From a virus, in IMG/VR virus record IMGVR_UViG_3300000567_000023, positions 1 to 23,905 of that record: a stretch of DNA of 23,905 nt. One strand, written 5' to 3'. The notes below the pieces were generated by a model. The model saw nothing but the letters and a program-made list of their open reading frames with translations, searched no databases and was not told where the DNA came from. Shown piece by piece: positions 2,128 to 4,000 of the stretch (positions are counted from its first letter, which is position 1; every line of letters begins with the position of its first letter). A program made the position numbers and the translations under genes.

Positions 2128-2757
2128 TCAGCCGTGTACGGGGCCGGACGGGAGCCTGCCGGTCTCGCGTGCCCAGGCCGCGATCACGGGCCACGGCCAC
2201 GCGGGACGGCCGCCGACCGTCCACACCGGGTCGGGCAGGACGCCGCGCTGCCGCCACTGGTCGGCGGTGGCCCGGTCCACTTGCAGCCGGTCGGCGATCT
2301 CGGCCAGGCCGACCGGATCGGCCGTCGCGGCAGTCTCCGCGCGCAGCGTCCCGACGGTGTAGCCGTTGTCCAGCAGCCGCGTCACGGCATCCTCGATCCG
2401 CTCGTCAGCCGCCAGCGCGCCGCACGCCACGAGACGGGTGATCTCGTCGCGCAGCTCAGCCCACCGCGCGGCGGCGGGAAACAGCGCGAGATAGACCCAT
2501 TCGGCCTGGGTGATCATGCCGGTGCCCTTGCGGGGGTGCAGGAACAGGTAGTCGCTGTGGCAGCGCACCTGGGCGTCACGGGCATCGCCGGCATAGGAGC
2601 CGTCTTCGGGCCGGTAGGCGGGCTCGTCGCCCCACCGGTCGTTAGCGGCGATGTCGTCGGTGATCCGCCGGGCCGCGCGGGAAGCCAGGAAGTGGGACTG
2701 GCTGCCGTAGGAGGTGTCCCAGGGCGCGTCGTCGCGGAGGTGGAGCATGGCTGGCAT
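2128..2757 (-). CDS. Protein with C-terminal helix-turn-helix, 209 aa
   Basis: Read on the minus strand from ATG at 2757, which has AAAGAGGA about 7 nt upstream; a second ATG three codons in is possible. Residues about 149-203 form a MerR/AlpA-type DNA-binding domain: VGLAEIADRLQVDRATADQW is the helix-turn-helix, followed by a wing-like GGRPAWPWP and the helix VIAAWARETGRLP. Residues 1-148 are unrecognised: SHFLASRAARRITDDIA, a PEDGSYAGDA segment, then a helical part with MITQAEWVYLALFPAAARWAELRDEITRLV. It is the second gene of a two-gene minus-strand block inside a plus-strand region, a typical setting for a regulator. It could control the divergent promoters near 3050; that is inference. 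Confidence 0.72.
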   Translation of the reverse strand: MPAMLHLRDDAPWDTSYGSQSHFLASRAARRITDDIAANDRWGDEPAYRPEDGSYAGDARDAQVRCHSDYLFLHPRKGTGMITQAEWVYLALFPAAARWAELRDEITRLVACGALAADERIEDAVTRLLDNGYTVGTLRAETAATADPVGLAEIADRLQVDRATADQWRQRGVLPDPVWTVGGRPAWPWPVIAAWARETGRLPSGPVHG

Positions 2758-3133: not shown

Positions 3134-4000
3134 GTGGCCAGACCCAACTGGGAATACATCAGGGTCGACGTCCGCCTGCCCCGGCACCGCAAGCTCGACG
3201 GCGCACGGCGGGAGGTCAAGTGGACCATCGTCGAATTGTGGGCGTACTGCGGTGAGGAACTCACCGACGGGTTCGTCCGCGACGCCGTGTGGAAGACAAT
3301 CGGCACCGCGCCCATTCGGCAGCAGATCATTGACCGGGGATTTGCCGGGCGTGTTCGCGGTGGTTATCTGATGCACGATTACCTGGAGCATCAGCGGTCC
3401 CGCGAGGAGGTCGAAGAGCTTCGCCGTAAGCGCTCGGAGGCGGGCCGCAAGGGTGGCCTCGCGAAACCAGGTGCTAAGCAAGTGCTTAAGCAAACGCCTG
3501 AGCAAGTGCTTGCAGCGGAACCTGTGGATAACCCTGGGCAAGACTCCTCGCGCACTGCTCCCCATAGTGGGGTGAACACTGTAAGCGCACCCATGCCCGT
3601 AGGTGAGTCGCACTCTGGGGAATCGGCATCGCCCACAGGTAACCGCAGGTCGGCGGCTCGCAGTGGCAAGCAAGTGCTTAAGCAAAACGGAAGCAAAACC
3701 GAAGCAGAGGCAGAGGCAGAGGCAGAGGCAGAGGCAGAGGCAGAGGCAGATCTTCCCGTGGCTGATGTATCTGATCGGGGTAACGGCAGTAACCCCCGGC
3801 CGCTCGACCGCGATCAGATATTCCAACTGATAATGACCGAGATAAACAACGCAACCGGGAAGGTAATCACGGTCGCCTGGGCCGAGAAAGTGTATGCCGA
3901 GATCCTGAAAGACCGGAGCCCGGCTGACCCTGCCGCGTATATCCGCAAGGTCATCCGCAACGAACCCGACCCGCGGAAGCGATTCCTGCCCGTCTACTGA
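3134..4000 (+). CDS. Phage replication-initiator-like protein
   Basis: GTG 3134 is chosen because AGGA lies about 9 nt upstream and recognisable sequence starts here; the frame is open to 2972. The product is 288 aa. Residues 1-95 match the N-terminal winged-helix domain of phage replisome-organiser-type proteins: VDVRLPRHRKLDG, ELWAYCGEELTDGFV, GRVRGGYLMHDYLEHQ. The signature EEVEELRRKRSEAGRKGG follows at about 96-115. Residues about 115-205 are a low-complexity linker with KQVLKQ repeats and an eight-unit Glu-Ala repeat. The C-terminus (VAWAEKVYAEILKDR, PAAYIRKVIRNEPDPRKRF) resembles a DnaD-like tail. It likely binds the phage origin and helps load the replicative helicase. The linker DNA carries iteron-like repeats and a DnaA box. 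The precise family is inferred. Confidence 0.75.
   Translation: MARPNWEYIRVDVRLPRHRKLDGARREVKWTIVELWAYCGEELTDGFVRDAVWKTIGTAPIRQQIIDRGFAGRVRGGYLMHDYLEHQRSREEVEELRRKRSEAGRKGGLAKPGAKQVLKQTPEQVLAAEPVDNPGQDSSRTAPHSGVNTVSAPMPVGESHSGESASPTGNRRSAARSGKQVLKQNGSKTEAEAEAEAEAEAEAEADLPVADVSDRGNGSNPRPLDRDQIFQLIMTEINNATGKVITVAWAEKVYAEILKDRSPADPAAYIRKVIRNEPDPRKRFLPVY
3476..3686 (+). other. Candidate replication origin: iteron-like repeats and a DnaA box inside the initiator gene
   Basis: Two identical 19-bp copies of AAGCAAGTGCTTAAGCAAA lie at 3476-3494 and 3668-3686, each with the palindrome TGCTTAAGCA. A third partial copy, GAGCAAGTGCTTGCA, is near 3500-3514. TGTGGATAA at 3523-3531 is the reverse complement of TTATCCACA, a perfect consensus DnaA box. 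CCCCA-TAG-TGGGG at 3560-3572 is a short palindrome. The stretch is less GC-rich than its surroundings. Origins with iterons inside the initiator gene are known, for example in lambda O. Confidence 0.55.
3701..3748 (+). repeat. Hexanucleotide microsatellite (GAGGCA) coding for Glu-Ala repeats
   Basis: One GAAGCA followed by seven perfect GAGGCA units encodes eight consecutive Glu-Ala dipeptides in the linker of the initiator-like protein. Because the unit is 6 bp, copy-number changes keep the frame and only change linker length. Confidence 0.95.

Follow-up and report, generated by a model that had tools for sequence, protein, structure and literature searches.

The incomplete virus record IMGVR_UViG_3300000567_000023, analysed here over its 23,905 bases (the window; guanine plus cytosine (GC) content 69.0%), carries a gene for an actinophage-type replication initiator, and the linker-coding part of this gene probably doubles as the iteron-containing replication origin of the phage, a reading to which we assign a probability of about 0.8. 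As expected of an iteron origin, direct repeats lie inside the initiator gene, the repeats are conserved at the DNA level independently of the protein, and the gene product possesses a DNA-binding domain. The comparative evidence for selection on the DNA of the repeat array is strong. Related phages keep the repeats even where these are noncoding, which makes it very probable that the site is the replication origin. This DNA-level conservation, the architecture of the array and its location next to the initiator domain are observed in coding as well as in noncoding forms.

The repeat array within the initiator gene

A preliminary description of this stretch had proposed a replication-initiator-like gene, and this is borne out by the matches of its product to two PHROG families, both annotated as replication initiation protein (phrog_3926, E 1e-17; phrog_2447, E 1.9e-15). 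The protein consists of an N-terminal winged-helix-like domain, a linker encoded by the repeats and a C-terminal segment. A fold model of the domain has a helix-strand-helix arrangement resembling a winged helix-turn-helix (mean predicted local distance difference test score 79.9), and no Pfam family, including PF07120 (DUF1376), matched the window protein. The two identical 19-bp repeats, the third partial copy and the palindrome of the preliminary description were all found where it had placed them: the exact 19-bp repeat AAGCAAGTGCTTAAGCAAA is located at 3476-3494 and 3668-3686, with none expected in shuffled sequences, the shorter copy GAGCAAGTGCTTG lies at 3500-3512, and the palindrome TGCTTAAGCA is present twice, both times within the repeats. 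The 19-bp stretch is not the repeating unit, however, as the spacing reveals two iterons of 11/12 bp in its place. The iteron core in the window is AAGCAA, and the units of around 12 or 11 bp start at 3476, 3488 and 3500 in array A and at 3668, 3680, 3691 and 3702 in array B. The previously assigned interval of 3476-3686 contains the repeats, but the feature extends to at least 3750, since the adjoining hexamers had been left out. The elements of the region are:

3134-4000, plus strand: replication-initiator gene, 288 amino acids, identified by PHROG matches; the GTG start is inferred
3476-3511, plus strand: iteron array A, AAGCAAGTGCTT / AAGCAAACGCCT / GAGCAAGTGCTT, spacing 12 bp, with an excess of AGCAA over the synonymous null
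3523-3531, minus strand: perfect DnaA box TTATCCACA between the arrays, an exact match and an optional part
3668-3706, plus strand: iteron array B, AAGCAAGTGCTT / AAGCAAAACGG / AAGCAAAACCG / AAGCA(G), spacing 12, 11 and 11 bp, detected by its 11-bp self-match
3704-3750, plus strand: tandem hexamer block (GCAGAG)7.8, a perfect 6-bp repeat encoding EAEAEA directly 3' of the iterons, detected by its 6-bp periodicity
3768-3781 and 3807-3820, no strand assigned: interrupted inverted repeat behind the hexamers, arms 93% complementary, 25-nt loop
3816-3895, no strand assigned: candidate DNA-unwinding element, the joint lowest-GC 80 bp (47.5%), by composition only

When the whole window is scanned, 11-bp self-matches peak at the array (5, next-best value 2) and 6-bp self-matches at the hexamer block (36, next value 7); a second array of this kind was not seen in the 23.9-kb window, which is itself incomplete. 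The repeats also exceed what the encoded peptide would bring about by chance. Two null models were used that hold the protein fixed, one shuffling synonymous codons and the other drawing codons from the phage's own usage. The window contains five 6-mer matches spaced by 11 bp, compared to means of 0.26 (synonymous shuffle, P 0.006) and 0.16 (phage codon usage, P 0.0007), and six copies of AGCAA, compared to 2.6 (P 0.003) and 0.4 (P 5e-5), respectively. For the DnaA box, the corresponding values are P 0.03 and P 0.006, while the exact 19-bp repeat, taken by itself, does not settle the matter (P 0.007 and P 0.14).

Codon usage changes along the gene. The GC content at third codon positions amounts to 0.79 in the N-terminal part, falls to 0.56 in the linker and to 0.44 in the hexamers, and returns to 0.72 in the C-terminal part; the drop is confined to the linker and the hexamers and is followed by a recovery, as would be expected if a constraint on the DNA overrides the codon bias only there. 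Furthermore, CAA accounts for 7 of the 11 glutamine codons of the initiator gene, compared to 4% of the glutamine codons in the other phage genes. The overall GC content is 58.8% at 3476-3686 against 69.0% in the window, in agreement with the dip described earlier, but this dip extends over the entire gene and reaches its minimum further 3', at 3816-3895.

Conservation of the array in related phages

Relatives with similar proteins were gathered from viral contigs and sequenced isolates, which yielded 85 loci after removal of near-duplicates, 84 of which were used; choosing one representative per 60% identity left 35 loci, 12 with a noncoding and 23 with a coding array. A scan of genome contigs with the window protein returned only three relatives, all of them metagenome-assembled. 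In 60 of the 84 loci, the open reading frame of the initiator continues through the array, whereas it ends 105 to 237 nt past a conserved MHDY motif in the other 24, with the array located at or behind the stop codon. In locus L006, for instance, the reading frame ends with ...GGGCAAGCAAGTGCTTAA and is followed by the noncoding sequence GCAAGTGCTCAAGCAAAATCCAAGCAAAGCGCAAGCAAAACTCAAGCAGAGTCAGAGACAG. Stop codons occur in all three forward frames in 15 of 17 noncoding array regions, and the array falls into an annotation gap in the isolates BIM BV-113, TripleJ, Kukla, DrYang, ArV1 and Anatole.

Noncoding arrays were assessed by counting 6-mer self-matches in the 220 nt after the stop codon and comparing them with shuffled sequences. 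The 24 noncoding regions contain 61 self-matches at 11 bp, 102 at 12 bp and 116 at 6 bp, with null maxima of 8, 6 and 6, respectively, and the signal persists among the 12 noncoding representatives sharing less than 60% identity (35, 59 and 72 at 11, 12 and 6 bp; null maxima 7, 8 and 8). At the 11-bp spacing, which is out of codon register, the 60 coding loci contain 235 matches against a synonymous-shuffle maximum of 41, and the 23 coding representatives 111 against 22. A 7-bp tandem signal rises above the null in the noncoding class only (63, null maximum 9; coding loci 16, null maximum 24), with the unit CCATTAA found in TripleJ, Kukla and BIM BV-113. A 7-bp unit that stands out solely in noncoding arrays is to be expected if a DNA element that is otherwise free is constrained by the reading frame. 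The idea of the preliminary description that the DNA sequence itself is under selection thus holds: the repeats are kept at the DNA level while the protein varies, also where they are noncoding.

The relatives share a common order of elements, in which iterons of 11/12 bp are followed by tandem units of 6 or 7 bp and then often by a hairpin. Tandem blocks of 6 or 7 bp are likewise prominent in relatives with a noncoding array; the units include CAGAGA, CAGATA, GCAGAG, CCCGTA, AACCAG and CCATTAA and measure 6 bp where they are coding and 6 or 7 bp where they are noncoding. In 8 of 29 relatives (0.34 expected), a hairpin with a stem of at least 8 bp follows the hexamers at a short distance. Strict short-loop hairpins were not found behind the hexamers of the window, and the inverted repeat at this place has a 25-nt loop, so that its equivalence to the hairpins of the relatives is uncertain.

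Within the closest clade (L003, L118, L120, L121, L122 and L113), the iteron types AGCAAGTGCTT, GCATGC, GATCGC and CCATGG/GATAGC occur, and the iteron sequence switches among these while the tandem block remains of the GGCAGA type and the spacing roughly the same. This switching provides a chance to link residues of the recognition helix with iteron sequence. In several noncoding loci, ACTTACGT and AACGCGCG are located farther downstream of the array. A second conserved noncoding element, comprising ACTTACGT(A) and AACGCGCGA, lies about 50 to 250 nt behind the tandem block and before the next gene, as seen in the gaps of L006, L015, L022, L169, L176 and others. Two relatives, L198 and L199 (NZ_CP045481.1 and NZ_CP127391.1), entered the databases as plasmids from Amycolatopsis and Propionimicrobium; they are circular phage genomes of around 40 kb, which contain integrase or recombinase genes and the initiator family of the window, with no other initiator gene listed.

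Proposed mechanism and competing explanations

For an origin of this layout, the following course of initiation can be envisaged. With its winged-helix N-terminal domain, the initiator would bind the AAGCAA iterons and, since their spacing of 11/12 bp corresponds to about one helical turn, the monomers would be stacked on one face of the DNA. The resulting nucleoprotein complex might then melt the DNA at the adjoining 6-bp tandem block and the AT-rich tract, and the replicative helicase would be loaded at the melted site; the hexamer block at 3704-3750 is accordingly proposed as a melting or helicase-loading element. The presence of a DnaB-like helicase gene after the initiator gene in Catfish, Asapag and Kithara fits this mechanism. 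The odd peptide encoded by the repeats (KQVLKQ...EAEAEA) could be tolerated because the cis-acting site sits in a flexible linker. A considerably more doubtful extension is that the tandem block is a distinct origin element whose repeat register engages the initiator or the helicase loader on single strands, similar to the DnaA-trios, which engage DnaA on single strands, and that such a composite origin is common to the actinophage winged helix-turn-helix family, DUF1376 and Lin1244_N.

Several findings weigh against the interpretation as an initiator-driven origin. The AT-rich tract at 3816-3895 adjoins the inverted repeat, but its GC content of 47.5% is modest in absolute terms. The GC skew has no clean switch at the array, a marker that is confounded and uninformative here. 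A fold search with the model of the initiator domain gave no significant match in the PDB, and the homology search detected no homologue of the C-terminal segment. Furthermore, L003, L118, L121 and L122 possess other iteron motifs of about 11/12 bp despite similar initiator domains; because the iteron core varies among such close relatives, recognition of the iterons by the N-terminal domain is only presumed.

The repeats could also be a cis-acting site other than the replication start, namely an operator at which the initiator would repress its own operon or a centromere-like partition site. In other replicons, arrays of the iteron type function as operators and centromeres, the array is always located in or just after the gene of a DNA-binding protein, and two of the relatives are the circular phage-plasmid records described above. 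However, the array lies inside or 3' of the gene and thus away from the promoter, no ParA or ParB is annotated beside it in the regions of the relatives inspected, and the tandem block, the hairpin and the conserved order are better suited to an origin. A function as operator or partition site in place of an origin is therefore considered unlikely, and an origin and an autoregulatory site can coexist. Less probable still is a low-complexity linker devoid of any DNA function, in which the repeats arise by slippage and nothing but a flexible, charged peptide is selected for. Hexamers encoding EAEAEA, DTDTDT and ETETET are typical slippage products, and the peptide together with the codon usage of the phage makes the exact 19-bp repeat by itself unremarkable (P 0.14). 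This explanation is largely refuted by the occurrence of the same arrays in noncoding DNA, and the 11-bp spacing out of codon register, the use of the otherwise rare CAA codons and the 7-bp unit that stands out where the array is noncoding speak against it as well.

The role of DnaA can be judged from the distribution of its box. The preliminary description had listed a perfect DnaA box, and TTATCCACA at 3523-3531 is indeed exact and the sole exact box in the window. Of 34 representatives, 2 have an exact box near the array (0.02 expected), namely the window and L004, and in L004, a near relative, it is likewise positioned between two AGCAA arrays. An origin at which this box is essential and host DnaA opens the DNA would account for these placements; nevertheless, it is very improbable, as no exact box accompanies the array in the remaining 32 representatives and a single box falls short of the number in known DnaA-driven origins. 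No conserved cluster of DnaA boxes, as expected of a DnaA-dependent origin, was found, with the window having the one exact box. The DnaA box as a core part of the origin was thus rejected for the family and retained as an optional part: it is probably real in the group of the window and L004 and dispensable across the family, and its lack of conservation suggests that the origin is probably driven by the initiator, with DnaA being optional.

Other initiator families and known intragenic origins

A search from DNA alone was performed by scanning the pattern AGCAAGTGCTYRAGCAAR across 2.9 million viral contigs using no protein information, which yielded 79 loci. In 18 of them, the match is located within or directly behind an open reading frame with the initiator domain of the window, on the same strand and mostly no more than about 85 nt from the end of the domain. 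Another 18 loci, many of which are near-identical copies, have the match inside genes of the DUF1376 type, and one more has it in a Lin1244_N gene; those of the DUF1376-type and Lin1244_N genes that were tested match PHROG families of primosomal, replisome-organizer or replication-initiation proteins. The remaining loci examined concern unrelated genes, such as those for tape measure and scaffold proteins, and the pattern alone is therefore not specific. Repeats of the type AGCAAGTGCT-YAAGCAA were seen within DUF1376 genes (L039, L041, L046, L048, L054, L073, L078 and L090) and in the Lin1244_N gene (L094). Both families may consist of phage initiators that bind iterons and have intragenic origins. 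For DUF1376, the 11-bp signal is weak (18, null maximum 16) and the 12-bp signal strong (220, null maximum 98); wide sampling of relatives of both families gave few loci, and the claim on them is kept weak for this reason.

Iteron origins inside a gene are known from other phages. The origin of phage lambda and those of Stx phages lie inside gene O, as established experimentally, and the number of iterons alters the length of the protein (PMC7466680). As in the window, the iterons are located in the middle of the initiator gene and adjoin an unwinding region (PMC7466680); however, their sequence is different, the spacing in the window being 11/12 bp, a plain AT-rich tract is found in lambda where a 6/7-bp tandem block follows the iterons here, and the array lies outside the coding sequence in some relatives of the window phage. 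A further experimental precedent is oriL of SPP1 within gene 38, which encodes the replisome organizer and likewise contains direct repeats and a DNA-unwinding element (PMC6316719). SPP1 differs in having a second origin around 13 kb away, and its likeness to the window is drawn from layout, not from repeat sequence. For the mycobacteriophage Miko, repA together with the 171 bp preceding it is enough for replication, and it was suggested that the origin is located in repA or immediately upstream (PMC7157519). The RepA replicons of Miko, Rachaly and Jeeves resemble the window in containing an actinophage initiator gene; their repA genes adjoin parABS cassettes, whereas no par genes were recognised in the window, where no search was aimed at them. 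The phage primosomal proteins of the DUF1376 family (PF07120) are similar in that several have AGCAAGTGCT-YAAGCAA iterons inside the gene, and different in that the window protein does not match PF07120. In the open-access literature searched, nothing was found on the initiator family of the window or on the 6/7-bp tandem block; within that literature, the origin of this family, the tandem block and the change of the array between coding and noncoding positions seem to be undescribed.

Origins have been mapped for few phages, and a signature that can be read from the sequence of dozens of actinophages, including cultured isolates, would make origin prediction possible. Initiator genes with poor annotation would also gain a function, and their strange repetitive linkers (KQVLKQ, DTDTDT, EAEAEA) an explanation. 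In addition, the coding and noncoding versions of the array represent a natural experiment on overlapping selection, which separates the constraint of DNA geometry (11/12 bp) from that of the reading frame (6 versus 7 bp).

Two further features of the window were noted. A small divergent gene upstream of the initiator gene (2128-2757, minus strand) has a weak helix-turn-helix or excisionase-like match, and positions 1-70, at the left end of the record, contain a tandem GC-rich repeat of 12/24 bp, which gives the highest 11/12-bp signal of the window apart from the hexamers.
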